NCBI RefSeq assembly: GCF_900182555.1
Contig: NZ_FXTH01000007.1
Span: 124,001-188,000 of the forward strand
Source of the DNA: Fodinibius sediminis
Lineage (GTDB): Bacteria > Bacteroidota > Rhodothermia > Balneolales > Balneolaceae
DNA: 64,000 bases
Direction: 5' to 3'
Shown: one piece after another, positions 4,181 to 37,262 of the stretch
How positions within the stretch are numbered: the stretch's first letter is position 1
How the letters are laid out: every line of letters starts with the position of its first letter
Notes under the pieces: generated by a model
The model's input: the letters and a program-made list of their open reading frames with translations, nothing else
Database searches by the model: none
What the model was told of the DNA's origin: nothing
Made by a program: the position numbers and the translations under genes

Positions 4181-4448
4181 CTTACACCCATCCTATAAAT
4201 GTATGTTTATGTATTTTGCAGACAAATGAATACAGCTTCCCAACGCATATCCCTTCCGCTCCTATGGGAAATCCCATTGCATTCCCTGACAGGCAATGAT
4301 TAGTTCAGCCTCTTCCAAATATTAAGCTTACAACAGAGGATTCATCCCGATTACCCAGTGAGTACGCTATGCAAAATGAGTTAACAATCAACAATTAACT
4401 ATTTTTTTAAAATAGTGCAAATATTAATTGCAGATCCCCTTTCGGGTT

Positions 4449-6797: not shown

Positions 6798-6903
6798 GTG
6801 CTGAAAACTTCCCTTATGATGTTAATCCGTAGTTTTAGTGCTGAAGTACCGGTGTTGATCTTTGTGAACATATACTGTACCAAAAAGTGACTGGCCCCGT
6901 CTA

Positions 6904-8172: not shown

Positions 8173-8361
8173 TTGATAGTTATGCTCTTATTTTAAAGGG
8201 ATACAAGTACACCTGACCTTGTTAAGAAGGACTAAAATTTTATCCGGGCTATTATATAATAGTAGCGTGATATTAATTAACGTAATAATTTTTCAGTTCC
8301 ACAACCTTAAAAGGCAGGTACTGTGTCCATGATAAACTAACATATTCGGTTGTATATCTCT

Positions 8362-10137: not shown

Positions 10138-10192
10138 AATCCGTTTATTAAAATATTGTTGGTACAGTTTGTTTAATGAATTGCCAACTCAT

Positions 10193-13681: not shown

Positions 13682-13759
13682 TTTGATCCCTATTATTTAT
13701 AGATATTAGTATTGATCCCATCACCCTCAAACAGCTATGGGGGTTTCCTTCACATCTCT

Positions 13760-14794
13760 TTAAGGCTTTGAAAATTCTATTTCCTGATTCTTCTTCCGGT
13801 AGTTCATTTTCATGGAAGCAGAGAGGACCTTCAAAACGTTCTCTAAATTTTCATCGCTAAACGTGCTGGTAAAAGGCACATCCAAAATGCTTGTATCCTT
13901 CACCGAAATTTGTACGTCAAATTTTCGTTCAATTTGCAATAAAACCTGTTTAAATGGCTCATTGTCGAAATACAAACCCCCACTTAACCAAAGCAGATGT
14001 TTCTCAATATCCACATTTTCAATTCCGGTAACTCCTTTGCCCTTAACTACGCTTACATGCTGGCCGCCGGTAAGCAGCACGCTGTTTTCTGAGCGTATAC
14101 TGCTCGCTGGTTTAACTGCAACCTTCCCCTCACGCACCCCAACATCAACTGCCGTTTCTTCATCCCAGGCACGGACATTGAATTTTGTTCCCAGCACTTC
14201 CACATCTGCCGTCTTCGTGTGAACGATAAATGGCTTGTCTGCACCGGGTACTACCTCGAAGTAGGCCTCCCCCTTCAGGTATACCTCACGATTAGCCCCA
14301 TCAAACCTTTTGGGATAGCGCAAGGAACTTGCCGCATTTAGCACTACGACGGTACCATCGGAGAAAGAGATCCTGGCTTTTTCACCTCTCCGGGCTGTAC
14401 TGTGCTTTAGTTCCGTATCATGTAGCTGGCTACCACCAGCCTGTTGCTCATCGAGGTAATGACTGGATAAGACGCCAACGAAAATAACCAATAAAACAGC
14501 GGCGGCCGTGCTCAGAACCGTTACCATGCGCTGGTTCACAGCGGAGGAGGGCTTCCAGTGCTTCCTGGACGGACCAGGATCTATCTCATGCATCCTGAAT
14601 CGATTCCAGGCGTCTTCAACATTTACCCCGAACTCTTCCTCCGGGCTCAATTTCCATATTTGCTTCAAATCATTCACCAAGCGCCGGTTCTCCGAACTTT
14701 CATCCATCCACCGTTCTACTTTCCGACGCTCTTCCGGCAGACAGTTGTTCGTTACATAGCGTTGTAAGAGTCTCCACATCTGTTGTTTCACCAT
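13760..14794 (-). CDS. FecR-family anti-sigma/signal transducer (FecR + DUF4974)
   Basis: A 344-residue inner-membrane regulator. A cytoplasmic N-terminal anti-sigma region (about 1-90) precedes one membrane helix (about 91-111, VLSTAAAVLLVIFVGVL), the FecR domain (about 130-230, with SFSDGTVVVLNAASSLRYP and GEAYFEV) and a C-terminal DUF4974 domain (about 270-340). It should hold the ECF factor at 14922-15503 inactive until the STN domain of the SusC at 10193-13681 signals. Gene order sigma, FecR, SusC, SusD on one strand supports this chain. Confidence 0.93.
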   Translation of the reverse strand: MVKQQMWRLLQRYVTNNCLPEERRKVERWMDESSENRRLVNDLKQIWKLSPEEEFGVNVEDAWNRFRMHEIDPGPSRKHWKPSSAVNQRMVTVLSTAAAVLLVIFVGVLSSHYLDEQQAGGSQLHDTELKHSTARRGEKARISFSDGTVVVLNAASSLRYPKRFDGANREVYLKGEAYFEVVPGADKPFIVHTKTADVEVLGTKFNVRAWDEETAVDVGVREGKVAVKPASSIRSENSVLLTGGQHVSVVKGKGVTGIENVDIEKHLLWLSGGLYFDNEPFKQVLLQIERKFDVQISVKDTSILDVPFTSTFSDENLENVLKVLSASMKMNYRKKNQEIEFSKP

Positions 14795-14921
14795 CAGTCA
14801 TCCATATATTTCATCCCTGTACTAATAAGACGAACGAAAAATCGGGCACCCTGCAATTTATTTTTTTAAGTATCTGGAATGGCCAGCTGTTGCAGGCGGG
14901 GCAGTATCCGTTACCCCTATG

Positions 14922-15503
14922 CTAAACCGAAAAAAAAGCTACAACTAAGAATGGAAGCAAATGGGAAAGGCGCTTGCGGAGACGTTTTAACGTCCTGGTC
15001 ATTTGTGATTCGACTGTTTTAACGGATACATCCATAACCTCCGCAATTTCACTGTATGTCAGCCCATCATAACGGTGTAATTTATAGGTCATCTTGCTGC
15101 GGGGAGGCAAGGCTTCTATCTCTCTCCGTATAGCCTCCTGGACCTGCTTCTTTCGACGGGGATCCCTGTAGTCAAGAGTGGGGTTGTCTTTCGCAGCCAT
15201 CCATTTCGGATCGTATTTTTTTCTTACCTCCTGGTGCCTGAGGTAATCCAGAGCCTGATTCTTTACCGACTGGTAAAGATAGAGTTTTAAAGAACTGGTT
15301 GGATGCCATTGTGCTCTATCCTGCCATATATTGGCAAAAACCTCTTGAACCAGTTCTTCAGCGATGGCATTTGATTTGACATATCGCCAGACGAAACGTG
15401 TCAAATCAAAATAATAGGTCGTAAACAGACGCTCAAAAGCTTCCTTATCCCCTTTCTGGATTTCCAATATCCAACGTTCTTCTTTATCCCCTTTTACACC
15501 CAT
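14922..15503 (-). CDS. ECF sigma factor of SusCD locus 1
   Basis: A 193-residue sigma-70 family ECF factor. Region 2 spans about residues 20-90 (AEELVQEVFANIWQDR), and region 4 about 125-180 with the helix-turn-helix LTYSEIAEVMDVSVKTVESQ. It is the first gene of the unit sigma, FecR, SusC, SusD and is predicted to turn on that locus once released by FecR. Its C-terminus ends in a hydrophobic stretch (LLPFLVVAFF) after a basic helix, as in the orphan factor at 3593-4180. A small inverted repeat (ACGTTT-AAA-AAACGT) at 15528-15542 lies just upstream of the start. Confidence 0.93.
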   Translation of the reverse strand: MGVKGDKEERWILEIQKGDKEAFERLFTTYYFDLTRFVWRYVKSNAIAEELVQEVFANIWQDRAQWHPTSSLKLYLYQSVKNQALDYLRHQEVRKKYDPKWMAAKDNPTLDYRDPRRKKQVQEAIRREIEALPPRSKMTYKLHRYDGLTYSEIAEVMDVSVKTVESQMTRTLKRLRKRLSHLLPFLVVAFFSV

Positions 15504-15710: not shown

Positions 15711-15758
15711 ACAAAAAAACCTGCAGCCCTGAATCCATATAATGGATCATTGCTGCAG
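15711..15758 (-). terminator. Intrinsic terminator of SusCD locus 2
   Basis: On the minus strand, an imperfect hairpin (outer stem CTGCAGC/GCTGCAG at 15721-15727 and 15752-15758, inner stem ATCCAT/ATGGAT with a 3-nt loop) is followed by a run of seven T (A run at 15713-15719 on the plus strand). It sits about 30 nt after the DUF1080 stop codon, and so ends the transcript that begins at the ECF factor near 25941 and separates it from locus 1. Confidence 0.85.
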
Positions 15759-15790
15759 GTCAAATCAGGTACTGGCGGTCAACGTATAAC

Positions 15791-16516
15791 CTACAATTCC
15801 TTAATCTTAATATTTCGAAAGTTTACGAGGTTTCCATGATCCTGCAGTCCGATATATCCTTCCCGCGCATCACCAAACTCCGGATGTTCCCGAAATTTAC
15901 TGTTACGGATCATCTTATACCAGTCGTTGGTCCACAGTTCATACTCCAGTACTTTTTCCCCATTCTGCCAGTGTTCCACCGTCGAACCATCAGCCACAAT
16001 TTTTACAGAATTCCATTCGCCGTATGGATTGGCGTTCTGCGGTTTGGCCGGAATCAGATCGTACAGTGATCCCGCTTTACGATTGCCATTTTCACCTCGT
16101 TCAGCATCAGGATGGTTTTCATTATCCAAAATCTGTACCTCCGGTGCCGACCAGTATATGGGCTGGTCGGGCTGTTCCATGGCCCGATAGAAAATGCCGC
16201 CGTTTGCACCTTCAGCCGCTCTCCAATCCAGCTTAAGTATAAAGTTGCGATATTTATGCCGGGTGATAATATCTCCTCCCCCGCCGGACGAACGTACCGA
16301 CAGCATGCCATCCTCTACCATCCATCCCTTTTCAGGAAAATTCGGGCTGTTATAGCCACGCCAGTGTTCTGCTGATTCTCCGTCAAAAAGCAAGATCCAT
16401 CCTTCGCTTTTCTCTGCATCTGTCAGCTCGTTATGCTGAGCCTGGCTGTTTAGACTCATGGCTGTGATAATGAGTATTGAGGTACAAAATATTGATAAGA
16501 ATTTCATGGAGTTCAT
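15791..16516 (-). CDS. DUF1080 protein, 3-keto-disaccharide hydrolase family
   Basis: A 241-residue secreted protein with a signal peptide (about 1-26) and one DUF1080 concanavalin-like jelly-roll domain. Family marks are WILLFDGESAEHWRGY, GANGGIFYR, EVQILDNENHPDA and the terminal GYIGLQDHGNLVNFRNIKIKEL-type strand. Characterised DUF1080 members hydrolyse 3-keto glycosides after oxidation at C3. The gene is last in an operon whose preceding two genes are a gluconate-2-dehydrogenase-subunit-3-like protein and a GMC oxidoreductase, exactly the partners expected for such oxidation. A strong terminator follows. The glycoside that is attacked is unknown. Confidence 0.88.
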   Translation of the reverse strand: MNSMKFLSIFCTSILIITAMSLNSQAQHNELTDAEKSEGWILLFDGESAEHWRGYNSPNFPEKGWMVEDGMLSVRSSGGGGDIITRHKYRNFILKLDWRAAEGANGGIFYRAMEQPDQPIYWSAPEVQILDNENHPDAERGENGNRKAGSLYDLIPAKPQNANPYGEWNSVKIVADGSTVEHWQNGEKVLEYELWTNDWYKMIRNSKFREHPEFGDAREGYIGLQDHGNLVNFRNIKIKEL

Positions 16517-16539
16517 TGTCGTATCAGGGTTATAACTTG

Positions 16540-17157
16540 TTAAGTGTTCGCTTTCGCCTTGTCAGCCAAGCCGATATGTTCCAGGGCTTCGTGTGAGCAT
16601 CCTTGCCAGTCGTAGGGCTGATTACCCATGTAGCCGATATCTTCAATTCCAATTTTACTGGACCAGAAACCGGAAGCCACCAGATCTCGGAAGCGATTAA
16701 AAAAGGTGACGCCCGGCTGCATTTCGGGACTGGCCACCTCGGGATAGGCAATTTCATCCAGCATCTCCTTCTGCTGCTGTTCGGTACAATCAACAAATTT
16801 TTTATTGAATCGCTTCTGACACTGAACATCCAGCCAGTTGAGTCCGCCGCGAATGGGCGTCTGGTTCTGCGGGCGATCGAGCATCATAAAATCTATAAAT
16901 TCCGGCACCCCGGCATCCTCGGCGTTTCCCGATCGCTCATCGGCCGGAATAATCAAGTTAGACAGCTGGCGAACCGTCTCGAATTCATGATCCGTAAAAA
17001 ACTGGCTTTCCCATTTTTCCAGATCCTCTTCAGTTACATGTTTCCAGAATTTATGCTGTTTTGCAGCTTCCTCCGGGGCCTGTTCGCAGCCCGTCATCGC
17101 AAAACTGGCGGCCAGCGTTCCCAGCGATAATGTTTTTAATGCATCTCTTCTATCCAT
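16540..17157 (-). CDS. Gluconate 2-dehydrogenase subunit 3 family protein (small subunit of the GMC enzyme)
   Basis: A 205-residue protein with a twin-arginine-type signal (MDRRDALKTLSLG, then hydrophobic stretch and a cysteine at about 24, TGC, that may be lipidated). The body matches the gluconate 2-dehydrogenase subunit 3 family (LIIPADERSGNAEDAGVPEFIDFMM and the FFNRFRDLVASGFWSS region). In known complexes this small subunit helps Tat export of the flavoprotein, which lacks its own signal, and stabilises it. The next gene upstream, 37 nt away, is a GMC flavoprotein without a signal peptide, so the two probably form one exported complex. Confidence 0.9.
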   Translation of the reverse strand: MDRRDALKTLSLGTLAASFAMTGCEQAPEEAAKQHKFWKHVTEEDLEKWESQFFTDHEFETVRQLSNLIIPADERSGNAEDAGVPEFIDFMMLDRPQNQTPIRGGLNWLDVQCQKRFNKKFVDCTEQQQKEMLDEIAYPEVASPEMQPGVTFFNRFRDLVASGFWSSKIGIEDIGYMGNQPYDWQGCSHEALEHIGLADKAKANT

Positions 17158-17194
17158 AGTTCAGCTATTTTACCTAATATATTATGACTTTACC

Positions 17195-18907
17195 TTAAAG
17201 ATTGCCCTTGTTCATTTGATCAGTAATATATTCCGATGTCCGCATCGACAGTGCCAGAATGGTCCAGGTGGTATTCTTGTGGGGCTGAGATACGAAGGGC
17301 CCTCCATCGGCGACGAAGAGGTTATCAACGTCGTGAGCCTGACAGTATTTATTAAGTACTGAGGTCTTGGGATCATCGCCCATCCGGGTGGTTCCCACCT
17401 CGTGGATAATTTCCCCAGGGGTGGAGATTCCATAGCCATCCTCCCTGGAGGGCATGTCCCAGAGCGGCGTGCCTCCCATTTCTCCAATGATATTGCGGAA
17501 GGTCTTCTGCATATGCCGGACCTGGCGGTATTCATGATCGCTCCAGTTATAATTGAACCGCAGCACGGGGATTCCCCATTCGTCAACGACATTGGGATCA
17601 ATCTCGCAGTAGTTCTCTTCGAAGCCGATACTCTCTCCCCGGCCGGAGAAACCAACAATGGAGCCATAATAACGGCGATAGTCCTCTTTAAGCTGCTTCC
17701 CGTATCCGCCGCCGCCTTTGGGCCGATCCTGGTAAAGATCACTATAGTTCTGAATGCCGCCCATAAATCCGTAGCTGGGCATGCCTCGTCCCCCCCACAG
17801 TTCCACATGATAGCCGCGGGGAAAATCAAGGCTGCTGTTGTCTTTCCACCATGGGATATACAGGTGCATTCCCCCGGTGCCATCCTCATTGTGGGCCGGC
17901 ATATTCATCAAATCGGGGATAAGTCCCGCTACAGAAGTACCCGTGGTATCCATCAGGTATTTCCCCACCGTGCCACTTGAGTTGGCAAGTCCATCCGGGA
18001 AATCGGGGGATTTCGAATTCAGCAAGAGACGGGCCGACTCACAGGCACTGGCCGCCAGTACCACGACCTTGGCCCGCACCTTATATTCCTGCTTATCTTC
18101 CTTGTTGACATAGGATACGCCGGTCGCCTTGCCATCGCTGTAGGTTACTTCCCGAACCATCGCCCCGTTGATAATTTCGAGATTACCCGTTTCCAATGCC
18201 GGCGGAAGCAATACGGAGGGCGATGAAAAATTTGAGTGGGTAGAGCAACTTCGGTTACACTGACCACAGTAATGGCAGGCGGCACGACCGTTATGAGGCT
18301 CTGTTATGATAGAGAGACGTGAGGGGATACATGGTATGCCCATATTGTCACAGGCATCCTTGATCAGATGCTCGTAGCAGCGGGGTTCCGGCGGTGGCAT
18401 ATAGATCCCGCCGGGTTCGTTGGGAATACCTTCATTAGTTCCAAAAACACCGATAAGCTTGTCAATACGATCATAATAAGGCTTCACATCCTCGTACCCA
18501 ATCGGCCAGTCGTCCCCCAGGCCATCTATGCTTTTCACACGAAAGTCATCGGGACCAAAGCGCAGAGAAATACGTCCCCAGTGATTGGTCCGGCCTCCCA
18601 GCATCCGGCCGCGAAACCAGTCGAAATCGGTGCCATTGGTTGTCGTATAGGGTTCCCCCTCAATATCCCAGCCGCCAAAACAGGCATCAAATTCACCAAA
18701 AGGCTGCAACCGGGTACTGGCCCCGCGCCGTGGTGACTCGTAGGGCCAGGTGAACATGGCAAAATCCTCGGAGTCAAACCAGCCTCCCGCTTCCAGCATA
18801 ATAACATTAGCGCCCGCTTTGGTAAGTTCATGGGCAGCCATTCCTCCACCTGCTCCTGAACCTACGATACAAACATCATATTCTTCGGGACTTTCTTTAA
18901 TCTGCAT
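17195..18907 (-). CDS. GMC-family FAD oxidoreductase with four-cysteine cluster motif (candidate glycoside 3-dehydrogenase)
   Basis: A 570-residue flavoprotein. The FAD-binding Rossmann motif is VGSGAGGG (16-22), and the C-terminal GMC signature is present as HEVGTTRMG and, at the end, PHKNTTWTILALSMR (H543, N545). Between them, CHYCGQCNRSC places cysteines at 211, 214, 217 and 221, like the iron-sulfur segment of FAD-dependent glucose/gluconate dehydrogenase large subunits. No signal peptide is visible; export by hitch-hiking on the Tat signal of the downstream small subunit is likely. With the DUF1080 gene in the same operon, the likely reaction is oxidation of sugar or glycoside hydroxyls, perhaps at C3. 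Electrons would leave through the cluster to a cytochrome, none of which is in this operon. Confidence 0.9.
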   Translation of the reverse strand: MQIKESPEEYDVCIVGSGAGGGMAAHELTKAGANVIMLEAGGWFDSEDFAMFTWPYESPRRGASTRLQPFGEFDACFGGWDIEGEPYTTTNGTDFDWFRGRMLGGRTNHWGRISLRFGPDDFRVKSIDGLGDDWPIGYEDVKPYYDRIDKLIGVFGTNEGIPNEPGGIYMPPPEPRCYEHLIKDACDNMGIPCIPSRLSIITEPHNGRAACHYCGQCNRSCSTHSNFSSPSVLLPPALETGNLEIINGAMVREVTYSDGKATGVSYVNKEDKQEYKVRAKVVVLAASACESARLLLNSKSPDFPDGLANSSGTVGKYLMDTTGTSVAGLIPDLMNMPAHNEDGTGGMHLYIPWWKDNSSLDFPRGYHVELWGGRGMPSYGFMGGIQNYSDLYQDRPKGGGGYGKQLKEDYRRYYGSIVGFSGRGESIGFEENYCEIDPNVVDEWGIPVLRFNYNWSDHEYRQVRHMQKTFRNIIGEMGGTPLWDMPSREDGYGISTPGEIIHEVGTTRMGDDPKTSVLNKYCQAHDVDNLFVADGGPFVSQPHKNTTWTILALSMRTSEYITDQMNKGNL

Positions 18908-19076
18908 AAACTATTTATGTATACTTTGTCTGTTTTATTATTCGTTCGCACAGCTACCGGCAATTTGCAATTGCGCACTAATTAGTTCCGTGGCGTAGAG
19001 CGGGATGCATTCTAAATGAAATCTCCGGGAGATGCAACCCCAACCTTTAATCGAAACAATTTATTACAACGGCATA

Positions 19077-19101
19077 ATCCTCCCCCGGCCGGGAGGAGGA
19101 T
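19077..19101 (-). terminator. GC-rich stem-loop between SusD and the GMC gene
   Basis: A 25-nt near-perfect inverted repeat (ATCCTCC...GGAGGAT around CCCGG/CCGGG, one mismatched pair), 67 nt after the SusD stop. It is not followed by a clear T run on either strand. It may attenuate transcription or set the 3' end of the abundant SusCD mRNA, lowering expression of the enzymes downstream. Role is inferred. Confidence 0.45.
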
Positions 19102-19167
19102 CATATCCGCTTGGTAATTATTTTTTAAAATTTCTCAGAAAAAGCCGGTGAGCTTATTTTCTGAAAA

Positions 19168-20745
19168 TTAATAGCCCGGGTTCTGCTCAAGATTCGGGTT
19201 GGTCTGGATTTCATCATCCGGCAGCGGATACAGCAGCTGATGTTCCTGGTAGGTCTGTCCCCAGTTGTTGGACTGCCCGACCACATTCATAAAACGGACT
19301 TCGCCGGGATTGTCCTCCGAGGGCACCGGGTACTGGCGCGTACGCTGAATATCCGACCATATCTTAAAGTTCAAGGCCAGCTCGCGCAGCCGCTCTTTCC
19401 AGACCTCCTCAACAAACTCCTGCTCGGAAAGTACGGCCAGTGAGGCTTCAATGGTGCTGCGATCGGTCTGCCAGTAGGCCCGGCTTCGCACATCAGCAAG
19501 ATAGGAGATCGCCTCACTCGTCACCCCTTCGGAACGGACTATGGCCTCTGCGGCTATCAGCAGCACCTCAGCATAGCGATACACTCTAATGTCTCGCCCT
19601 CCCCGGCCGGTTTCAAAGATGGCATCCTCTTCAAACCACAGGTACGGGGCCCATTCGCCAAACTCATAGCTTTGTCCACCGTGTTCAAAGGAATGGTAGA
19701 AAAGCTGCTGATTCTGGATGCGAAGATCTTCGTCGGGGTTGTACATCCAGGTAAAAGCATCAATGGGACGATAGGCGTTCAGCGTTCGGCCATAGTTGAT
19801 ACCGGTCGGCCTGACCACCCCGGGGATGGTAATACGCGGATTGTCATTGGCATCGATTTCCGCATTATATTCAATGCCGTAGACATACTCCATGTCATTG
19901 TCGGATGTGCGCAACTTGTTATAGGCACTGCGGTCCGGAAGGGATCCATGCTCCACCAGCTGGTGGTTGCCCGCTTCTATAACCGATCGTGCGGCATCAG
20001 CGGCATTGGCGTAGTTGTCGGCCTGCAGCGGGTAGCCGGACATTTGAAGATAGACATCAGCCAGGAGGGTCTGGGCCGCCCCTTTTGTAATTCTGAATCC
20101 GTTCATTGGGAACGGGCCTTCGCCGAGGGCTCCCTGATCAATGGCCCAGTTCAAATCGGCTACAATTTGATTGTACACCGAGTCGGTGCTGGTTCGCTCT
20201 ACCTCAATGCCCTCCAGGCCCTCCACCGGTTCTGTGACCAGGGGAACATCACCGAACGACTTGACAAGGGCAAAATAGTTCAGTGCTCTGAAAAAACGGG
20301 CTTCAGCAAGCAGCTGATTTTTTTCGCCCTCACCCATACCCTGCATATCAGGGATATACTTCAGCGCTGTGTTGGCCCTCGATATAACATCGTAGTGCCC
20401 CGACCACCAACCGTCAAAAAACTGGTTTAGCACTTCCGGGCCTACCTGCAGATCCTGGGCGACCTGCCCCTGGATCCGTTCTCCCTTCCCTTCGTTATCA
20501 AAGTAGCCAGACATGTAGCCCCCCATCATAACATCGGCGCCGCCAAAACCTCCGGAATTGTAGAAACTGGCCCCCTGCCCATCTCTGTAAAGGCCGTTTA
20601 TCAGGCCTTTGGCCCCTTCCGGTGTTTTTAAAAGCTGGTCAACAGAAATTTCATCTTTGGGAGTTTCTGCTAAAAAATTGTCGCATGCACTCACCGCCCA
20701 AAAGGACAATACAAGAATAAAAACTAACTTCTTCATAGTATTCAT
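19168..20745 (-). CDS. SusD/RagB-family glycan-binding lipoprotein (locus 2)
   Basis: A 525-residue lipoprotein (type II signal, lipid cysteine about C21 in AVSACDNFL). The N-terminal helical core (YFALVKSFGDVPLVTEPV at about 150-170) and the C-terminal YPLPDDEIQTNPNLEQNPGY ending are standard for SusD. It is the surface lid and binding protein of the SusC encoded 21 nt upstream. Downstream, after 260 nt with a GC-rich hairpin, comes the GMC/DUF1080 enzyme group, so its ligand is probably an oligosaccharide or glycoside handled by oxidation. Confidence 0.95.
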   Translation of the reverse strand: MNTMKKLVFILVLSFWAVSACDNFLAETPKDEISVDQLLKTPEGAKGLINGLYRDGQGASFYNSGGFGGADVMMGGYMSGYFDNEGKGERIQGQVAQDLQVGPEVLNQFFDGWWSGHYDVISRANTALKYIPDMQGMGEGEKNQLLAEARFFRALNYFALVKSFGDVPLVTEPVEGLEGIEVERTSTDSVYNQIVADLNWAIDQGALGEGPFPMNGFRITKGAAQTLLADVYLQMSGYPLQADNYANAADAARSVIEAGNHQLVEHGSLPDRSAYNKLRTSDNDMEYVYGIEYNAEIDANDNPRITIPGVVRPTGINYGRTLNAYRPIDAFTWMYNPDEDLRIQNQQLFYHSFEHGGQSYEFGEWAPYLWFEEDAIFETGRGGRDIRVYRYAEVLLIAAEAIVRSEGVTSEAISYLADVRSRAYWQTDRSTIEASLAVLSEQEFVEEVWKERLRELALNFKIWSDIQRTRQYPVPSEDNPGEVRFMNVVGQSNNWGQTYQEHQLLYPLPDDEIQTNPNLEQNPGY

Positions 20746-20766
20746 GATATGTGTTAAAATGCGTGG

Positions 20767-23700
20767 TTAGAATCTAAAATTCACTCCAAGAGTAAATGTT
20801 CGCGGCTTCGGATACTGGTAAAAGAATATATTCTGCGTATTGGGATTACCGCCCCAAGAGGTCCCTTCCGGGTCATGCCCCTTGAAATCGGGATGGTGAA
20901 TCACAAATGCATTTTCCAGGCTCGCGGTGATTCGCATACGCTGCATGCCCAGTTTGGAGCTCGTTTCCTGATCCAGTGTATAGCCCAGTGAAAAGAGATT
21001 GCCCCTGATATAGGAACCATCCACGATCCAGTGACTGTCGGCCTGGGTGTTCTGTCCGGACAGCGGCTGATGCCTGATTCGCTGAATGGGCGTATTTTGA
21101 TGGTCAGGCGTCCAGGCATCATACAGCTGGGTGCTGATGCCGTTGGTCAAGGCCTGACGGTCTTCAGCGGTATGCAGGAACTGCTGCATGATCTCGCTCC
21201 CATAGACAAATTGTAAATCAGCGGTAAAATCAAAGTTTCCGAAGTTGAACTGGTTCACAAAACTTCCCGTCCAGTCCGGCATGCCGTGACCGATGATCTG
21301 CCGCTCTTCCGATCGCTTGGCCTCACCGGGAATTCGTCCTGCTTCAGCCGCCTCGGCCGCTTCATCCGTATTCCAGGTGCCATAACGCTTAAATCCATAA
21401 AAGGTACCGATGGGTTCGCCCACCCGCAGGATGGTCTGGCTACCAGACACCCAGTTCGGACCGGGGAAGATATCCTCATCCTCGGCACCAAGGCTTTCCA
21501 CCCTGTTGATGTTGTAGTTAAAGTTAAGCGTAGAAGACCAGAAGAAGTTGGACGACTGGATATTATTGGTGGTCAGCATGAAATCGACCCCACGGTTTGA
21601 GACCGACCCCACATTGTCCATAACCACATCAAAGCCGGTGGTAGCCGGGATGGGACGGTTGAGCAGCAGGTCATCCGTTAACTTATAGTAGTAATCCGCT
21701 TCCAGCGACACCACCTGGTTGAAGAGATCAACCTCCATACCAACGTTATACTGGGTCGTCTTTTCCCATTCCAGGTCGGGGTTGGCCAGCCGCTGCAGGC
21801 TGCTGGAGGTCTGTCTTGCACCTCCTATCAGTACCGTTCCGGAACTAATGGTTGACAGTGACTGGTACACACCGATTTCAGTATTACCGGTTTTACCGAC
21901 CGATCCTTTGAACTTCAGGTAGTCGATAAAATTCAGATCCGACATGAAATCTTCGTTTGATGCTGTCCAGCCCAGGCCCAACGAGGGGAAAAAGCCATAC
22001 TTATTATTTTCTCCGAAACGAGAAGAGCCGTCCATGCGGCTTGTAAATGTTACACTGTAGGTTTCATCGTAGGTATAGCTGCCCCGGGCAAAGTAGGAGT
22101 TCATTGTCCAGTCCCAGGCGTTGGATGAGGGGATACCGTTGATGTCGGTCGCCGCATCAATGTTATTGGTGCGGTACAAGTCATTGGGGAATTCGCGTAC
22201 GCTTGAGTAGTCGCCCCGGTAGTCGGTTCCCTGCCAGCTGGCTCCCAGTACGGCGTTCAAACTGTGATTGCCGCTGTCCAGGATATAGGTCAAATAGTTC
22301 TCGTTCTGCCAGTAGGTAGTCTCACTGTTCGATATAGACGCATTCCCAACGGAAGCTTCCGGAGACACCAGGTCGGTAGGCTGGTAGGTTCTGGCTTCAT
22401 AATTGGTATTATCGATCCCGAACTGGGTTCGGAACTCCAAATTAGGAGTAATCTGGAATTCTGCATAGGTATTACCAAAAAGTTGGATTCTATCCCTGAG
22501 CCTGTCTTCCTCGAGGGCGCGCTGCACCGGGTTGGGCTGGCCTTCGAGGGTCAGGCTGCGTATATCGTTATAATGCGTATAGGTACCATCCTCCCACCGT
22601 ACCGGCAGAATAGGAGCAAATTCAATCATCGTTCGGCGGATTTCCTGTCCACCTCCTCCTTCTTCAATGTTATTTTCCCAGGTTTTGTTGACCGTCAGAT
22701 TTGTACCCAGAGACAGCCAGTCGGTGGGCGTGGTATCATAGACGATTTTTGCACTGGCCCGTTTCATCCAGGAATTAAGGATGATTCCCTCATTGTTGGT
22801 ATAGTTGAGGAAACCGCCAAAAGATGAATTTTCACCACCGGACTGAATCCCTATCTGATGGTCATGTGAGAGGGCAGTGCGGGTCACCGCATCCTGCCAG
22901 TCCGTATCGTAGATTGGGTTCCCCTGGTCATCAAACAGCTTTTCCATATCCGGAGACAAATCCAGTGTTGGTTCTTCGCCCGGGGCATAATCATCAAACA
23001 GAGGAGCATTTTCATAACCGGTACGCTGAACTTTCATAAACTCTTCCGCATTCATTGCATCCATGCGGCCGCGCATCCTGCCCACGCTGAAAGAGCCGTC
23101 ATAACTCACAACCACCTCATCGGAGACGGCGTCGCCCCGTTTCGTAGTCACCAGGATCACCCCGTTGGCTCCGCGCGATCCGTAAATGGCCGTGGCAGAA
23201 GCATCCTTCAGAACCTCAATACTTTCAATATCGTTGGGATTCATATACTCAATACCACTCTGCATCACAACCCCGTCCACAACATAGAGAGGATCGGTAT
23301 CCGCGTTGATGGAGCCCGAACCCCTGATAACCACCCTGTTGCTTCCTGTCGGTGATCCGGAGTTGGTGAAAATATTTACGCCTGCCACTTTACCCCTCAA
23401 GCTCTGCAGCGCATTGAAGGAGGGCTGCTTTTCCAGGTCGGCCTCCGAAACCATTCCAATAGATCCTGTCACATCTGATTTTCGCTGGACGCCATAACCT
23501 GTAACAACCAGCTCTTCGCCCGAGATCGTCTCTGACTGCAGGGATACATTGATTTCCGTTCTGCCATTAATGGGCACTTCCCGGCTCTGGTATCCGATGA
23601 AGGAAAAAATCAGGGTATCCTGCAGGGATGGGACATTCAGCTGGTAGGCACCCTCTCCATCCGTGGAAGTACCAGTAGTGGTACCCTTTACCATAACATT

Positions 23701-24213
23701 TACCCCCGGCAGCACTTCACCTGTACTGGCATCGGTAACCGTACCACCGATGGGTTCCATAACAGTTTTGCTGAATTTATCCCTCCGACTGGTCAACACC
23801 AAATGATTATTGGGAGACAGTGCAAACCGCAGGCCTGTCCCTTCCAGGATGGTCCACAACGCTTTATTGACCGTCACGCTTTGTGCTCCCAGCGTCACCC
23901 GTTTTGACAGGGGGACCTGCTGATCGCTGTAGGAAAGCTGCAGACCCGCCTTAGCTGCAACATCCTGCAGCGCAGCTTTCAGCGCAACGTCCTGGTATTC
24001 AATCATAATCATCTTGTTAAGTGATGGTGGTGTTGTTCGGCTGTTGGTAATATTGACCCCGGAAAAAACCGAAGCTTTTGTATACAAACTGCCATTATCG
24101 ACAGCCGGTGTATCCTGTGCCTGAGTGGCATTCACTGCGAGTAGAAACACCGATAAAAAACAGACTATCTCTATCCCGTTCCGTAAGATCCCGCCTTGGT
24201 TGCGTTTTCTCAT
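20767..24213 (-). CDS. SusC/RagA TonB-linked transporter with STN domain (locus 2)
   Basis: A 1148-residue outer membrane transporter. The start at 24213 (MRKRNQGG) is chosen because GGAG lies 6 nt upstream; an ATG 12 nt earlier is less likely. Domain order: signal sequence, STN domain (about 65-145, KAALQDVAAKAGLQLSYS), carboxypeptidase regulatory-like domain (about 155-230), TonB-box-like VVTGYGVQ, plug (about 245-360, with DASATAIYGSRGANGVI), then barrel ending in FRF. The STN domain pairs with the FecR gene 23 nt upstream, giving ligand-driven induction. It works with the SusD downstream. Confidence 0.95.
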   Translation of the reverse strand: MRKRNQGGILRNGIEIVCFLSVFLLAVNATQAQDTPAVDNGSLYTKASVFSGVNITNSRTTPPSLNKMIMIEYQDVALKAALQDVAAKAGLQLSYSDQQVPLSKRVTLGAQSVTVNKALWTILEGTGLRFALSPNNHLVLTSRRDKFSKTVMEPIGGTVTDASTGEVLPGVNVMVKGTTTGTSTDGEGAYQLNVPSLQDTLIFSFIGYQSREVPINGRTEINVSLQSETISGEELVVTGYGVQRKSDVTGSIGMVSEADLEKQPSFNALQSLRGKVAGVNIFTNSGSPTGSNRVVIRGSGSINADTDPLYVVDGVVMQSGIEYMNPNDIESIEVLKDASATAIYGSRGANGVILVTTKRGDAVSDEVVVSYDGSFSVGRMRGRMDAMNAEEFMKVQRTGYENAPLFDDYAPGEEPTLDLSPDMEKLFDDQGNPIYDTDWQDAVTRTALSHDHQIGIQSGGENSSFGGFLNYTNNEGIILNSWMKRASAKIVYDTTPTDWLSLGTNLTVNKTWENNIEEGGGGQEIRRTMIEFAPILPVRWEDGTYTHYNDIRSLTLEGQPNPVQRALEEDRLRDRIQLFGNTYAEFQITPNLEFRTQFGIDNTNYEARTYQPTDLVSPEASVGNASISNSETTYWQNENYLTYILDSGNHSLNAVLGASWQGTDYRGDYSSVREFPNDLYRTNNIDAATDINGIPSSNAWDWTMNSYFARGSYTYDETYSVTFTSRMDGSSRFGENNKYGFFPSLGLGWTASNEDFMSDLNFIDYLKFKGSVGKTGNTEIGVYQSLSTISSGTVLIGGARQTSSSLQRLANPDLEWEKTTQYNVGMEVDLFNQVVSLEADYYYKLTDDLLLNRPIPATTGFDVVMDNVGSVSNRGVDFMLTTNNIQSSNFFWSSTLNFNYNINRVESLGAEDEDIFPGPNWVSGSQTILRVGEPIGTFYGFKRYGTWNTDEAAEAAEAGRIPGEAKRSEERQIIGHGMPDWTGSFVNQFNFGNFDFTADLQFVYGSEIMQQFLHTAEDRQALTNGISTQLYDAWTPDHQNTPIQRIRHQPLSGQNTQADSHWIVDGSYIRGNLFSLGYTLDQETSSKLGMQRMRITASLENAFVIHHPDFKGHDPEGTSWGGNPNTQNIFFYQYPKPRTFTLGVNFRF

Positions 24214-24236
24214 AAAAAGCTCCATTAGATTAAGGT

Positions 24237-25274
24237 TTATTGTGAATTTTGGTTAAAGCTTATGGTCCGCCCCTCTCTCTGAAATTCCGCATCCAGAGAG
24301 AGCGCCAGAATATTCAGTACTTCCAACAGCGGCTCGTCATCAAATGAGGCGGTTACCTGCTGATCAAGCAGGGAAACCTCCGCCTCGACTTTTATATTAT
24401 ACCACCGTTCCAGCTGGGGTATGACCTTTTCAAACGGTGTTGACCTAAAGACCAGCCGCCCATCCTTCCATGCAACATATGATGCGATATCCGGCACGTT
24501 GCTCATGTTTTTTTCTCCATCCCTTCCCAGCACCCCTACCTGACTGGCCGTCAAATGCAGCTCACCGGAAGCCTCTGCCCCTGCAGTATTCAAAGCTACA
24601 CGCCCCTCTTCAACTGCCACCTGCACCTGCTCATCCCGGGGGTAGGCCTTGACCCCAAATTTCGTGCCCAGTACTTTCGTAGCTGAGTGAGCCGAATATA
24701 CGATGAATGGGAGATCGGGATCATGGGCCACCTCAAAGAAAGCCTCCCCTCTCAGCTTCACGCTGCGGATGGAATCCCCGAAGTTGGCTGATAATTCAAG
24801 ATGAGAGGCTGCATTGAGATACACCCGGGTACCATCAGATAATCGGAACGACGTTCGCTGCCCCAATGCTGTTGAAACCTCCTGTATCCGGGTCCCTTTT
24901 TGAGCGATTTCGTTATCGGCCAGGTCAAAATCCGGAACAAAGAAATACAATAACACAGCTACGAAAACTACTGCAGCAGCGGCTACGGAAACAGCAAGGG
25001 AACGATTATACCCTTTTCTGTTCGGTACATTGTCTCGAATGCTGTGAATATTGCCTGCTGGATCCTTTTCCGACAGGTTATCCTTAAAAGATTCCCATGC
25101 CTTTTCGGCATCAACACCTACTTCACGTGCAGGTTTCACATTCCAGATTTTTACCAGTCTCTGAATTTTTTTCCTGTTATCACTGCTCGCCTCTATCCAA
25201 TCTTCAACTTGTTTTTTTTCTTCCGGCGTGCATTCTCCCGCCAGGTATTTGTGCAGCAAAGTCCAATTCATCAA
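24237..25274 (-). CDS. FecR-family anti-sigma/signal transducer (locus 2)
   Basis: A 345-residue inner-membrane regulator: cytoplasmic anti-sigma region (about 1-90), one membrane helix (about 93-112, LAVSVAAAAVVFVAVLLYFF), FecR domain (about 130-235; FRLSDGTRVYLNAASHLEL, GEAFFEVAHD) and a C-terminal DUF4974 domain (about 270-340). It links the STN domain of the SusC just downstream to the ECF factor just upstream (25387-25941). Layout is the same as in locus 1, so these are two separate, parallel sensing units. Confidence 0.93.
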   Translation of the reverse strand: MMNWTLLHKYLAGECTPEEKKQVEDWIEASSDNRKKIQRLVKIWNVKPAREVGVDAEKAWESFKDNLSEKDPAGNIHSIRDNVPNRKGYNRSLAVSVAAAAVVFVAVLLYFFVPDFDLADNEIAQKGTRIQEVSTALGQRTSFRLSDGTRVYLNAASHLELSANFGDSIRSVKLRGEAFFEVAHDPDLPFIVYSAHSATKVLGTKFGVKAYPRDEQVQVAVEEGRVALNTAGAEASGELHLTASQVGVLGRDGEKNMSNVPDIASYVAWKDGRLVFRSTPFEKVIPQLERWYNIKVEAEVSLLDQQVTASFDDEPLLEVLNILALSLDAEFQREGRTISFNQNSQ

Positions 25275-25386
25275 TTCTTACCGAATCCTCAAATATCATT
25301 TTTTTAGAGTTCTATAGTTTATACAACTGAAAAGAGAGGGACCCTGTAATTTTTTTTATTTTTTTTGCAAAAGAGACAAAAAAATA

Positions 25387-25941
25387 TCATCCCGATATAT
25401 ATTGGGCGAGAGACTGGCGCAATGTTTTGAGTGCTCGGCTCATTTGCGATTCCACGGTTTTAACCGAGATATCCAGTACGGATGCGATTTCACGATAGGT
25501 CAGGCCCTCCCTGCGGCTTAACTTGTACACCTGCCGGGCACGACTGGGCAGATTCTCAATCGCCCGCTGCGCGGCCTGTACAAATTCCGAAGGTTCTTCT
25601 TTTCTTTCACTGTGATGCTGGGTTACCGGGGAGGGCTTAACCCATTCAATTTTGCGATTGTATTCGCGGGCCAGCTCCTTATGCTTGATATGATTGAGCG
25701 CCTTGTTCCTGACTGATTTATAGAGGTAGGACTTTATGTTTTTCCGGGGATCCAGCGACTCCCTTGACTGCCACAAGCCCAGAAAAACCTCCTGGACCAG
25801 CTCCTCGGAGATGTGCCGGGAATGGGTATACTGCCACGAAAACTGACACAGGGGGTCATAAAAGCGAAGAAAAAGCTTTTTAAAGGCCTTTTGATCACCC
25901 TTTTTTATTTTTTTGACCCATAACATGGTGCCATTTTTCAT
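25387..25941 (-). CDS. ECF sigma factor of SusCD locus 2
   Basis: A 184-residue ECF sigma factor with region 2 (about 20-90; SEELVQEVFLGLWQSRE) and region 4 (about 120-175; GLTYREIASVLDISVKTVESQMSRALKTLR). It heads the operon sigma, FecR, SusC, SusD, GMC, small subunit, DUF1080. Unlike the other two ECF factors in the window it has no hydrophobic tail (ends LAQYISG). It is expected to be held by the FecR protein encoded next and freed when the glycan binds SusC/SusD. Confidence 0.94.
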   Translation of the reverse strand: MKNGTMLWVKKIKKGDQKAFKKLFLRFYDPLCQFSWQYTHSRHISEELVQEVFLGLWQSRESLDPRKNIKSYLYKSVRNKALNHIKHKELAREYNRKIEWVKPSPVTQHHSERKEEPSEFVQAAQRAIENLPSRARQVYKLSRREGLTYREIASVLDISVKTVESQMSRALKTLRQSLAQYISG

Positions 25942-26262
25942 ACAATTCTGATAATTTCCCGTACGGAATTATTACCTTTTATACCATAATCTCATGAGGC
26001 TAAAAACGTTTGCTTGATGCTGGCAGGGTTTAGCGGGGCAGTGAATGCTGCATCCTGGATAAGCATCGAAAGAAATGAATCAGCAATACCGCTCCATCAG
26101 GACGTGAAAAATCACGTTTTTTAACCCCTACTACTTGAATGGCTTCCATGACACCGGGTATATGTTCACCCTTCCACCTACCCTCATCTATCTGTGATAA
26201 GGATAAGGCGCTCTCATACCCTGCGCCTTATCCCTTTATCACAACAACCTGTTATCTTCGTT
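25942..26262. other. Intergenic region upstream of ECF sigma gene
   Basis: About 320 nt between the sigma gene start and the epimerase stop. It must hold the promoter for locus 2, not identifiable with confidence. A near-palindrome around CCGTACGG lies just upstream of the sigma start, and a strong hairpin lies at 26193-26243. No gene seen. Confidence 0.6.
26193..26243 (-). terminator. Strong long stem-loop after the exported epimerase gene
   Basis: A perfect 11-bp stem (GGATAAGGCGC/GCGCCTTATCC, 26201-26211 and 26223-26233) with an 11-nt loop is extended by a further 8 bp (TGTGATAA/TTATCACA) past a 2-nt bulge. It begins about 20 nt after the epimerase stop on the minus strand. There is no T run, so it may be a Rho-assisted terminator or a 3' mRNA stabiliser rather than a classic intrinsic terminator. 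Confidence 0.6.
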
Positions 26263-27198
26263 TTAGGAAAGCTCCTTGCCAGCCTGAATCAATAGCTCCT
26301 TGGTGGCTTTGATACCTTCGGATTCACTGAGTTCGCTTCCTTCATATTCAATGCCAATATGACCGGTATAGCCGGCATCCTTCACGATTTGAAGCATTTT
26401 CTCATAGTCGGTATTTGTTTCATGGCCCTCTGCGTTAAAAGCGTGACTTTTAGCACTGACGCCTTTGGCATACGGCATCATCTGTTTAACACCTTTGTAT
26501 CGGTCGTACTCATTGACACACTCTCCGTCTTTGTGCTCAATACAGAAGTTTCCAAAATCAGGCAGCGTCCCACAGTTATCCATGCCTACTTCTTCCATGA
26601 CACCGGCAATCCAGTCTCCATCTGAAGAATAGCCGCCGTGATTTTCAACAATAATGTTGATATCGTAATCCTTGGCAAAGCTGGCCAGGCTTCCCAAGCC
26701 GTCCACAGCCGCTTTTCTCTGGTCTTCCCGGGAACCACCGCCCCTTGCATTCACGCGAATGGAATGACAGCCCAGGTATTGTGCAGCTTCTACCCATTTG
26801 TAATGATTTTCTACCGACTGCTGGCGTTCCTTGTCATCCGTTGCCGCAAGAGCACCCTCGCCGTCAATCATGATAAGCACTTGGTCAACTCCCAGGTCGC
26901 TGCAGCGTGAATTCATCTCATCCAGATAATCGGTGTCCTCTGCTTTATCCTTGAAGAACTGGTTGACATATTCTACGGCTGTAATACCAAACTCATTTTT
27001 GGCTGTCGCCGGAAAGTCAAGGTGTTCAAGGTCTCCATCAAAGAGGGTTCGGTGCAAACTCCACTGTGCCAGTGAAATGTCGAAAAAAAGGTCTTCCCCC
27101 CCTGCATTGGCTTTTGAATTACACGCCGTAATCAAACCGGGCATAGCAGCAGATGCTACGGCAAATCCACCCAGTTGTAAAAAATGCTTTCTGTCCAT
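26263..27198 (-). CDS. Exported TIM-barrel sugar isomerase/epimerase (xylose isomerase-like)
   Basis: A 311-residue xylose-isomerase-like TIM-barrel protein of the sugar phosphate isomerase/epimerase (AP endonuclease 2) type. The four metal ligands are visible: E185 (VENHGG), D214 (LPDFGN), H252 (AKSHAF) and E284 (GIEYEG). The N-terminus (MDRKHFLQLGGFAVASAAMPGLITAC) is an export signal with a possible lipid cysteine at 26, so it works outside the cytoplasm, probably on an unphosphorylated sugar. AGGA lies 7 nt before the ATG. It is divergent from the MFS gene. Exported proteins of this kind often accompany GMC oxidoreductases and DUF1080 proteins in Bacteroidota, and some relatives act on 3-keto sugars; the activity here is unknown. 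Confidence 0.87.
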   Translation of the reverse strand: MDRKHFLQLGGFAVASAAMPGLITACNSKANAGGEDLFFDISLAQWSLHRTLFDGDLEHLDFPATAKNEFGITAVEYVNQFFKDKAEDTDYLDEMNSRCSDLGVDQVLIMIDGEGALAATDDKERQQSVENHYKWVEAAQYLGCHSIRVNARGGGSREDQRKAAVDGLGSLASFAKDYDINIIVENHGGYSSDGDWIAGVMEEVGMDNCGTLPDFGNFCIEHKDGECVNEYDRYKGVKQMMPYAKGVSAKSHAFNAEGHETNTDYEKMLQIVKDAGYTGHIGIEYEGSELSESEGIKATKELLIQAGKELS

Positions 27199-27476
27199 AA
27201 TAATCCTGTTAAGATTTTTTTGCCCATCATCAGATCGTAAGCTGATAACCCATCAACTTTCTGAATTCCAACAATATGAGCTACTTATAATTAATGAAAT
27301 TGAATTCGCTATAATGTAACAAAATATTTAGGTGATGCAATTTACTCCTTGGCATTTTTTTGTAATATTAGTGCAAAATATTTTTACAGTAACTGTGATG
27401 AAAATTTCACATACTTAGCAGTATCATATTTTGATTGTACTCAATAGTAATCGGACTAAAATTTAAGGATTGTTTA
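27199..27476. promoter_or_regulatory. AT-rich divergent promoter region
   Basis: A 278-nt AT-rich gap between the divergent epimerase (-) and MFS (+) starts; promoters for both must lie here. The only clear signals are AGGA 7 nt before the epimerase start and AAGGA at 27465-27469 before the MFS start. Confidence 0.6.
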
Positions 27477-28730
27477 ATGAATAGATTATTACAAGCGAAG
27501 CTTAGCCTCATGATGTTTCTCGAGTTTTTCATCTGGGGGGCGTGGTATTCCACCGTTGCCGTGTATATGACGGCCAATGGCATGGAGAGTCTCACTCACT
27601 GGCCTTTTACTGTAAACCCTATTGCGGCTATCGCTGCCCCCTTCTTTGTAGGGCTGATTGCAGACCGCTACTTTGCTACGGAAAAAGTGCTTGGCGTGCT
27701 TCATATTCTCGGTGCCCTCTTTATGTTTCTGACTCCGATGGCCGTTAACAGTCCGCTGCTGTTTATTCTCCTGCTTCTTGCCTACAACCTGTGCTATATG
27801 CCAACCATGAGCCTGGCCAATACCCTTTCCTTCCATCACATTGATGACCAGGAAAAAGATTTCCCCATCATTCGGGTATTCGGAACCATCGGCTGGATTG
27901 TCGCTGGACTCATCATCAGCTTTGTTCTGGGCATTTTTGTGGCGGATAATCTGAAACCCGAACAAACCGCCCTGCCCCTCTATCTCACATCAGCTGCCAG
28001 CCTGCTGCTGGGCATCTACAGCTTCACCCTTCCGCATACTCCCCCGCCGGCAGCCGGTGAAAAAATATCTGTTCGCAGCATTGTCGGTATTGATGCACTC
28101 AAGCAGCTGGGGAGCAGGTCATTTTACGTATTTTTGTTCAGCTCTTTTCTAATCTGTATTCCCCTGGCTGCTTATTATAATTTCACCCAGATCTTCCTGG
28201 GTAATGCAGGCTTTGACAATATAGCTGCCACCCTAACCATCGGCCAGATGTCTGAAGCGCTGTTCATGGTCCTTATCCCGGCTATGTTTATCCGCCTGGG
28301 GGTTAAGTGGATGCTGGCAGCAGGCATGTTTGCCTGGGTTCTCCGCTATGCTCTTTTTGCCCTGGGCGCCACTGAGCCTACCGTATGGATGATCATCACG
28401 GGTATTGCCCTGCATGGCATATGCTACGATTTCTTCTTCGTAACGGGACAAATTTATGTAGACAAAAAATCAACCCCTGCCATTCGCGGACAGGCACAAG
28501 GGTTGATTATTCTCATTACGTACGGCGTAGGGATGCTTATTGGTGCACAGGTGGCGGGACAAGTTTACAACAGCTTTCTGGGTACCGCTTCATCCCTGAC
28601 CCTGAGCCAATGGTATGATTTCTGGTGGATACCCGCAATTTTTGCCATTGCCGTACTGATCTTCTTTATCATCTTTTTCAATGACCAGGTGTTGGATGAA
28701 GATGCAACAGCTGAAGATATAGCCGTCTAG
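27477..28730 (+). CDS. MFS transporter, nucleoside permease (NupG)-like
   Basis: A 417-residue inner-membrane transporter with 12 predicted helices, beginning MNRLLQAKLSLMMFLEFFIWGAWYSTVAVYM, the conserved start of the NupG/XapB-like MFS branch. The start at 27477 has AAGGA at 7 nt spacing; a frame-open ATG 42 nt upstream is not supported. In Bacteroidota this branch often sits with sugar isomerases, DUF1080 proteins and oxidoreductases and may carry sugars or sugar derivatives rather than nucleosides. Here it is divergent from the exported epimerase and followed by an intrinsic terminator, so it is a single-gene unit. The product of periplasmic oxidation or epimerisation is a reasonable substrate guess. 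Confidence 0.88.
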   Translation: MNRLLQAKLSLMMFLEFFIWGAWYSTVAVYMTANGMESLTHWPFTVNPIAAIAAPFFVGLIADRYFATEKVLGVLHILGALFMFLTPMAVNSPLLFILLLLAYNLCYMPTMSLANTLSFHHIDDQEKDFPIIRVFGTIGWIVAGLIISFVLGIFVADNLKPEQTALPLYLTSAASLLLGIYSFTLPHTPPPAAGEKISVRSIVGIDALKQLGSRSFYVFLFSSFLICIPLAAYYNFTQIFLGNAGFDNIAATLTIGQMSEALFMVLIPAMFIRLGVKWMLAAGMFAWVLRYALFALGATEPTVWMIITGIALHGICYDFFFVTGQIYVDKKSTPAIRGQAQGLIILITYGVGMLIGAQVAGQVYNSFLGTASSLTLSQWYDFWWIPAIFAIAVLIFFIIFFNDQVLDEDATAEDIAV

Positions 28731-28750
28731 GATATTCCTCACCAGTTATC

Positions 28751-28788
28751 AAGCCGGTCATGCCATTTCGCGTGACCGGCTTTTCTTT
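28751..28788 (+). terminator. Intrinsic terminator of the MFS gene
   Basis: Perfect 10-bp stem AAGCCGGTCA/TGACCGGCTT (28751-28760 and 28773-28782), loop of about 12 nt that can pair further, then TTTTCTTTT. It lies 20 nt after the MFS stop. An ATG inside it (28760) is therefore an unlikely start for the next gene. Confidence 0.9.
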
Positions 28789-28906
28789 TGGACCAGGAAA
28801 CTCCTTACCATCATTATGGACAGGAACGATAAAAAACTTGCTTCAAAATGCTTTTTTTCCTATCAATACTCATTTGACAACGATTTCAATCAATAGATCA
28901 TTTCTA

Positions 28907-32368: not shown

Positions 32369-32385
32369 TTCAAACCATTCCGTTT

Positions 32386-37257: not shown

Positions 37258-37262
37258 ATTCC

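Follow-up and report, generated by a model that had tools for sequence, protein, structure and literature searches.

A window of 64,000 nucleotides from Fodinibius sediminis, a bacterium of the order Balneolales (NCBI RefSeq assembly GCF_900182555.1, contig NZ_FXTH01000007.1, positions 124,001 to 188,000 of the forward strand), contains a locus in which a SusC-SusD importer pair (SusCD) and its ECF/FecR regulators stand next to genes for a probable sugar-oxidizing enzyme system. An initial annotation of this locus had recognized seven genes, for an ECF sigma factor, FecR, SusC, SusD, a GMC flavoprotein, its Tat-signal small subunit and a DUF1080 protein, and had read them as one operon, closed by an intrinsic terminator, that encodes the whole chain from sensing and import to oxidation and cleavage of glycosides. 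Profile matches bear out all seven genes, which gene calls and profile searches place on the minus strand; missed were a gene for a TIM-barrel protein at 26263-27198 and, at 27435-33210, divergent genes for an MFS protein, a HEAT-cytochrome c protein and a second DUF1080 protein. The features of the locus, numbered from the first letter of the window, are as follows.

About 15711-15761, minus strand: intrinsic terminator 3' of the DUF1080 gene (fold and U run)
15791-16516, minus strand: DUF1080 (PF06439) protein with a secretion signal, a predicted 3-keto-glycoside-cleaving enzyme (179.7 bits, cut-off 26.8)
16540-17157, minus strand: PF13618 small subunit, hereafter DH3 (117 bits, cut-off 23.4)
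17195-18907, minus strand: GMC flavoprotein large subunit, clade A
19069-19167, minus strand: pair of hairpins between susD and GMC, at about 19132-19167 and 19069-19111 (fold z score)
19168-20745, minus strand: SusD surface glycan-binding lipoprotein (PF07980, PF14322)
20767-24225, minus strand: SusC TonB-dependent outer-membrane importer (TIGR04056, 807 bits, cut-off 368)
24237-25274, minus strand: FecR anti-sigma factor with C-terminal domain (PF04773, PF16344)
25387-25941, minus strand: ECF sigma factor of the TIGR02985 family (164 bits, cut-off 126.4), where the regulatory and import block begins
26192-26244, minus strand: strong hairpin between the TIM and ECF genes (z -6.06)
26263-27198, minus strand: TIM-barrel (PF01261) enzyme with a Tat-like lipoprotein signal, directly upstream of the ECF gene
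27435-28730, plus strand: MFS transporter of the nucleoside-H+ symporter family (PF03825), divergent from the TIM gene
28760-32368, plus strand: DUF7133/GSDH-like propeller protein with HEAT repeats and cytochrome c
32386-33210, plus strand: second DUF1080 protein, adjoining the HEAT-cytochrome gene (126.4 bits)

The SusC, SusD, ECF and FecR genes stand in tandem, the arrangement by which SusCD utilization loci are recognized, and the same importer pair and trans-envelope regulator are found in canonical SusCD polysaccharide utilization loci. Unlike those loci, this stretch encodes oxidative enzymes, and neither a glycoside hydrolase nor a polysaccharide lyase is present among the proteins of 15791-27198. 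The description of these enzymes as replacing glycosidases thus holds locally, with no glycoside-hydrolase family detected among the 26 window proteins scanned with Pfam. The SusC protein has an N-terminal extension and a weak STN domain (25.2 bits, cut-off 28.4); in its orthologue from a related locus (L030), this domain scores above the cut-off (38.7 bits).

The intergenic gaps measure 112 bp between ECF and FecR, 11 bp between FecR and SusC, 21 bp between SusC and SusD, 260 bp between SusD and GMC, 37 bp between GMC and DH3, and 23 bp between DH3 and DUF1080. The terminator proposed to close the locus was recovered: a U run comes after a GC-rich stem that encloses a smaller hairpin (-32.1 kcal/mol for a 91-nt stretch, z -3.83); a terminator consensus scan with a loop limit of 8 did not list it. 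A single operon from ECF through DUF1080 is possible but remains unproven because the 260-bp susD-GMC gap is rich in hairpins: the segment 19040-19167 folds better than shuffled sequences (z -5.38; 0 of 200 shuffles equal it), the first hairpin has a U run within its 3' arm, and the two together could mark a transcript end or a processing site. The equivalent gap is hairpin-rich in one related genome (G016, locus L033; z -6.98) and not in another (G011, locus L030; z -1.04), and an alignment of the gaps from the three genomes revealed no clear conserved element. Consensus scans of the window for sigma-70 promoters and terminators were uninformative, with 24 promoter-like sites where chance predicts 18.2 and 12 terminators where it predicts 13.5, and the three matches to a Bacteroidota-type promoter pattern in the window all lie outside the SusCD/GMC locus.

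The GMC protein itself lacks a signal, and its partner DH3 begins with MDRRDALKTLSLGTLAASFAMTGC, in which a Tat-like signal and a lipobox are apparent by eye; DH3 is therefore expected to carry the signal-less large subunit into the periplasm. In a search across 128 genomes of the order, the window GMC falls within a clade (A) set apart from clades B and C by a gap in identity (56-63% versus 38-39%). The DH3 gene is directly downstream of the GMC gene in 129 of the 131 clade-A loci examined, and 124 of those 129 DH3 proteins contain an RR motif (loose pattern). Three cluster-type cysteines (C211, C217, C221) and the catalytic-type H502 and N545 do not vary among the 10 sequences compared from clades A, B and C or within a set of 26, and they align with positions of the FAD glucose dehydrogenase 6a2u that presumably bind the [3Fe-4S] cluster and serve as catalytic His and Asn. 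The best structural match to a model of the GMC protein is fructose dehydrogenase 8k6j (Z 37.1, rmsd 3.2, 506 aligned residues), followed by 6a2u (Z 32.0) and by C-glycoside and pyranose oxidases (Z about 30). Because the cluster cysteines and the active-site His/Asn are retained and the model is closest to fructose and glucose dehydrogenases, the protein is a dehydrogenase-type enzyme that probably hands electrons to a carrier; the site of attack on the sugar cannot be read from residues or fold. The DH3 and DUF1080 proteins had no NCBIfam match and GMC had only matches far below the cut-off, and a sequence search of the PDB with DH3 returned no match.

The PF06439 match of the DUF1080 protein spans profile positions 1-187 of 187, and the protein aligns over its full length with solved members of the family (4hxc, 1.6e-60; 8rr2, 3.6e-59), sharing the motifs QILDN..HPDA, GNR..SLYD.IPA and EG.IG.QDHG with 4hxc, 3nmb, 3osd and 8v31. 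By this family membership, it is predicted to cleave 3-keto glycosides. Inspection by eye suggests export-type signals at the start of both the DUF1080 and the TIM-barrel proteins. The latter is a predicted hydratase or beta-eliminase of a 3-keto pathway, and a PDB search placed it close to no characterized eliminase; the MFS protein is a predicted importer of the released sugar, and the DUF7133-HEAT-cytochrome c protein is, from its position only, a possible electron-transfer partner. A Gfo/Idh dehydrogenase is absent from the cluster, and the nearest gene of the matching type is about 80 kb away on the same contig, beside another GMC pair (L014). Thus, the chain is not encoded together as a whole: the TIM gene lies outside the seven-gene stretch, Gfo/Idh is distant and the cluster has no cytochrome acceptor.

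A 3-keto pathway of Bacteroides thetaiotaomicron, the subject of a 2024 Nature paper, reportedly begins with oxidation by NAD-dependent Gfo/Idh enzymes; that pathway includes a DUF1080 enzyme of the same family as the one described here, with the difference that the window would rely on a GMC/DH3 flavoprotein pair for the oxidation. One such protein, BT2157, is named 3-ketotrehalose hydrolase in a report on Caulobacter crescentus (PMC9007349). According to the same report, LacABC and a DUF1080 protein are both required for lactose use in C. crescentus, the authors propose that 3'-ketolactose is cleaved in the periplasm, and LacABC-DUF1080 clusters also occur in Bacteroidetes, for example Indibacter, along with a Pedobacter dehydrogenase (PMC9007349). 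The system of LacABC and the DUF1080 protein CCNA_01705 resembles the window in its GMC large subunit, small subunit, periplasmic DUF1080 protein and nearby epimerase-type, reductase and transporter genes, and differs in that the window cluster lacks the cytochrome subunit (LacB) and has SusCD and ECF/FecR attached. Because no cytochrome c subunit is encoded with the cluster, we do not assign it to LacABC and describe it only as working like it.

The second point of comparison is the GlycDH operon of Agrobacterium, which comprises an oxidase, two TIM-type enzymes (one a demonstrated beta-eliminase, the other a putative hydratase) and a Gfo reductase, with cleavage proceeding by beta-elimination and hydration; a TAT-pathway partner protein from Rhizobium sp. 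GIN611 is named in the same work (PMC10628242). The GlycDH/OGE/HYD/Gfo systems of Rhizobium and Agrobacterium share with our locus the flavoprotein with a Tat-signal partner, TIM-barrel isomerase-like enzymes, a Gfo reductase (here only if the gene some 80 kb from the cluster is counted) and the logic of oxidation, elimination, hydration and reduction; cleavage there is by a TIM-barrel eliminase, whereas the window has DUF1080 as well and one TIM gene instead of two. Since that pathway cleaves by beta-elimination plus hydration, the verb "hydrolyse" that the initial annotation used for DUF1080 may be wrong. The combination of GMC, small subunit and DUF1080 matches the gene make-up of systems that oxidize at C3, and the comparison adds the TIM, MFS and Gfo/Idh genes to it. 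Because this gene complement is that of a known oxidation-elimination-hydration-reduction route, oxidation at C3 is likely by analogy, and the regiochemistry remains, as the initial annotation itself said, an inference.

Comparison of loci supports a conserved association of the enzymes. We delineated 14 orthologous loci, the window included, with GMC identity of at least 68%; TIM, DH3 and DUF1080 genes accompany GMC in 14/14, Gfo/Idh is found within 8 kb in 10/14 and MFS in 6/14. Same-strand SusC and SusD occur in three of these loci (G000, G011, G016), whose GMC copies form one clade (support 96/80). Hence, the search of related genomes for the same gene order, which had been proposed at the outset, recovered the core TIM-GMC-DH3-DUF1080 throughout and the importer only in this minority. 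The order has 35 further clade-A loci; 9 of them encode DUF1080 within 8 kb, and 5 have same-strand SusCD. A wider scan yielded at least 594 confirmed places, from which 80 named clade-A loci (Gemmatimonadota, Acidobacteriota, Bacteroidota and a few others) were taken; among the matches listed, these include DH3 in 79, Gfo in 50, TIM in 27, DUF1080 in 14 and same-strand SusCD in 2 (L164 in Croceivirga and L171 in Chitinophaga alhagiae), absences being soft because only 45 of the 80 loci have 8 kb on both sides. Gene sets like the core, with MFS and Gfo/Idh genes, are present in Gemmatimonadota (e.g. L101, L114 and L119), and a chromid-like plasmid of Pseudoalteromonas donghaensis (L074; GMC identity 48%) encodes Gfo-TIM-MFS-DUF1080-GMC-DH3-TIM in one direction.

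Several observations weigh against 3-keto chemistry. On a rival reading, GMC/DH3 would oxidize aldoses, alcohols or other compounds, for instance at C1, and DUF1080 would be a simple glycan-binding or hydrolytic partner. The nearest solved relatives are glucose dehydrogenase, which oxidizes C1, and fructose dehydrogenase, which oxidizes C5. The FAD glucose dehydrogenase of Burkholderia and the membrane-bound fructose dehydrogenase of Gluconobacter resemble the window protein in fold, cluster-type Cys, His/Asn and a separate small subunit; they differ in the carbon oxidized, in possessing a cytochrome subunit and in lacking DUF1080, and are only 24-27% identical to the window GMC. Confidence in the structural model is moderate (pLDDT 68.4 overall, falling below 50 in the Cys region and at residues 540-545), so active-site geometry is left out of the argument. 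Clade A is 34-38% identical to clades B and C, and the tree holds no characterized C3 enzyme. DUF1080 is not found within 8 kb in 26 of the 35 other clade-A loci and, among the matches listed, in 66 of the 80 named loci, many of the contigs being short. In L062, L065 and L071, a clade-A GMC-DH3 pair follows amidohydrolase-like genes (by eye) with no DUF1080, so that clade A need not act on sugars throughout. As for an electron acceptor, no reading frame with a C..CH motif was found within 4 kb on the same strand in the window, and 4 of the 131 clade-A loci have one; the HEAT-cytochrome c gene is about 9 kb from GMC on the opposite strand. What speaks for oxidation at C3 is the presence of DUF1080 in all 14 orthologous loci together with TIM and Gfo partners, the make-up of the known 3-keto routes, whereas C1 oxidation would not require this set. 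We therefore consider the C1 or alcohol dehydrogenase explanation improbable.

The coupling to the importer was approached from the SusC side in 126 genomes, with the 5 best first-look candidates scored per genome. SusC orthologues were identified in 16 genomes at 57-100% identity to the window copy, the next best sequences reaching at most 44%; 14 loci are readable, after two (G057 and G054) were dropped where contigs end within SusD and with the G064 locus counted once. A clade-A GMC/DH3 pair is present in six of them (G000, G011, G016, G056, G060 and G064). In this group, a hexokinase gene follows DH3 in G056 (L053), G060 (L055) has no DUF1080 within 8 kb, and four genes separate SusD from GMC/DUF1080 in G064. 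In four other loci (G012, G061, G046 and G050), the SusC orthologue is followed by a protein like w10, a DUF1080 + PA14 protein encoded elsewhere in the window (48170-50089, minus strand). The w10 gene overlaps that of w9 (46096-48186, minus strand), a DUF7133 propeller protein with an azurin-like copper domain; a w9-like protein comes after w10 in 2 of the 4 loci, while in G061 and G046 the sequence stops within w10 or shortly beyond it. The host genome has 13 DUF7133 matches, 3 of them no more than 6 kb from a DUF1080 match. The remaining four readable loci have neither partner; among them, a DUF1080 match of low score (40.7 bits) occurs some genes upstream in G065, and G068 has a GH38-like gene downstream.

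The importer thus changes partners, and in 10 of the 14 loci the partner supplies a DUF1080 protein or a GMC pair; in G012, the SusCD adjoins the w10 and w9 genes even though its SusC nests among the GMC-linked SusCs. By a rough chance expectation, with at most four clade-A genes, a reach of about 18 kb and a genome size near 4 Mb, the 14 loci should include far fewer than one that is GMC-linked, a comparison to be read with the caveat that the SusC loci are related and not independent. On a GMC tree of 40 rows that we selected, including all with same-strand SusCD within 8 kb, the SusCD label changes 7 times by gain or loss, with at least 5 changes forced by well-supported branches; shuffled labels change 9.8 times on average, and 9 of 500 shuffles are as low as 7. 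Given the GMC pair in 6/14 and another DUF1080 protein in 4/14 SusC loci, and the five or more gains or losses on the GMC tree, the link looks functional rather than a chance neighbourhood. The proposed coupling of SusCD to the oxidative enzymes is accordingly kept as exceeding chance, with SusCD and ECF/FecR as optional components.

The same data can be read as two independent units, a self-contained ECF-FecR-SusC-SusD block having been inserted between the TIM and GMC genes of an old oxidative cluster and importing an unrelated substrate. Eleven of the 14 orthologous loci lack SusCD, and in most of the 14 TIM lies directly or nearly beside GMC with no such block; strong hairpins mark both edges of the block in the window (z -6.06 and -5.38), and the one between susD and GMC weakens the case for joint transcription. 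The single clade of SusCD-bearing copies may reflect one event within the genus, the G012 SusC orthologue (88% identity) is about 300 kb from the GMC gene and has a different partner, and the four loci with neither partner point the same way. These points are countered by clade-A GMC pairs that meet orthologous SusC in two genera and in different gene orders (6/14 loci), by the DUF1080 domain of the alternative partner w10, and by the recurrence of the linkage on the GMC tree, within the limits of our choice of rows. On balance, two unconnected units seem unlikely to us, and the coupled system is retained.

The host genome has 23 PF06439, 4 PF13618 and 4 GMC C-terminal domain matches. All four GMC genes have a PF13618 partner gene. 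Three of these pairs adjoin SusCD, namely the one in the window and the two below; the fourth (L014) lies beside a Gfo/Idh gene.

L013, 1374-17428 (contig C1): LacI-SusC-SusD-151 aa protein-GMC-DH3-Gfo-DUF1080-OMPdecase-family-ADH-SDR-PfkB
L015, 8083-17702 (contig C11): DH3-GMC-ECF-FecR-SusC-SusD, with a clade C GMC and sulfatase-like genes around (by eye)

The first of these, a paralogous locus under a LacI regulator, is a possible full catabolic route.

Directly downstream of the locus, on the minus strand at 592-15503, is a second ECF-FecR-SusC-SusD locus that also encodes two glucuronoyl-esterase-type proteins (PF22244), another ECF factor, a sodium:solute symporter and a GlcNAc 2-epimerase family protein; an ECF-FecR pair 3' of DUF1080, similar to this downstream one, is also present in L030 and L033. 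Elsewhere in the window (33312-40691, minus strand), two large FG-GAP/UnbV-ASPIC proteins are encoded around a 204-aa protein without a Pfam match (36676-37290).

Taken together, the evidence makes it probable, in our assessment, that the locus combines a module for oxidative glycoside catabolism in the periplasm, TIM-GMC-DH3-DUF1080, with a later-added SusCD importer under ECF/FecR control. In such a system, SusCD would take a small glycoside or oligosaccharide across the outer membrane and would signal across the envelope, with FecR as relay, to activate the ECF sigma factor. The GMC flavoprotein, co-exported with its Tat-signal lipoprotein subunit, would oxidize a ring hydroxyl in the periplasm, most likely that at C3, and pass electrons by way of the iron-sulphur cluster to a respiratory acceptor whose gene lies elsewhere. 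The glycosidic bond, now weakened, would be broken by DUF1080 through elimination or hydrolysis; the TIM-barrel protein would then hydrate or eliminate the keto-glycal, and the MFS protein would import the product, to be reduced by a Gfo/Idh dehydrogenase encoded elsewhere in the genome. The genes, their family assignments, the conserved residues and the recurrent association are observed, whereas the C3 position, the nature of the substrate, the sequence of reactions and a common regulation are inferred. The chemistry itself is already known from other bacteria; what looks new is the SusCD/ECF/FecR front end on catabolism of the LacABC/GlycDH kind, and the locus further differs from the known routes in that its cluster encodes no cytochrome subunit and that DUF1080 and a TIM enzyme occur side by side. 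A search of the open-licence literature found no paper on SusC/TonB joined with GMC, gluconate 2-dehydrogenase subunit 3, DUF1080 or 3-keto chemistry, which is weak evidence for novelty.

A more speculative idea, which we hold doubtful, is that one SusCD receptor family alternates between two oxidative DUF1080 modules, GMC/DH3/DUF1080 (6/14) and the w10-like DUF1080-PA14 protein (4/14) with a DUF7133 propeller. Should this be a like-for-like exchange, DUF7133 proteins with copper or haem domains would be a second, unrecognized class of glycoside dehydrogenase, or an electron acceptor, alongside DUF1080. Close relatives would offer a comparative test bed, since one importer is found there with two different DUF1080 partners and one oxidative core either has the importer or lacks it. 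If the coupled system is real, some SusCD loci would feed glycosides to oxidative cleavage, and searches that require a glycoside hydrolase would miss or mis-score them.

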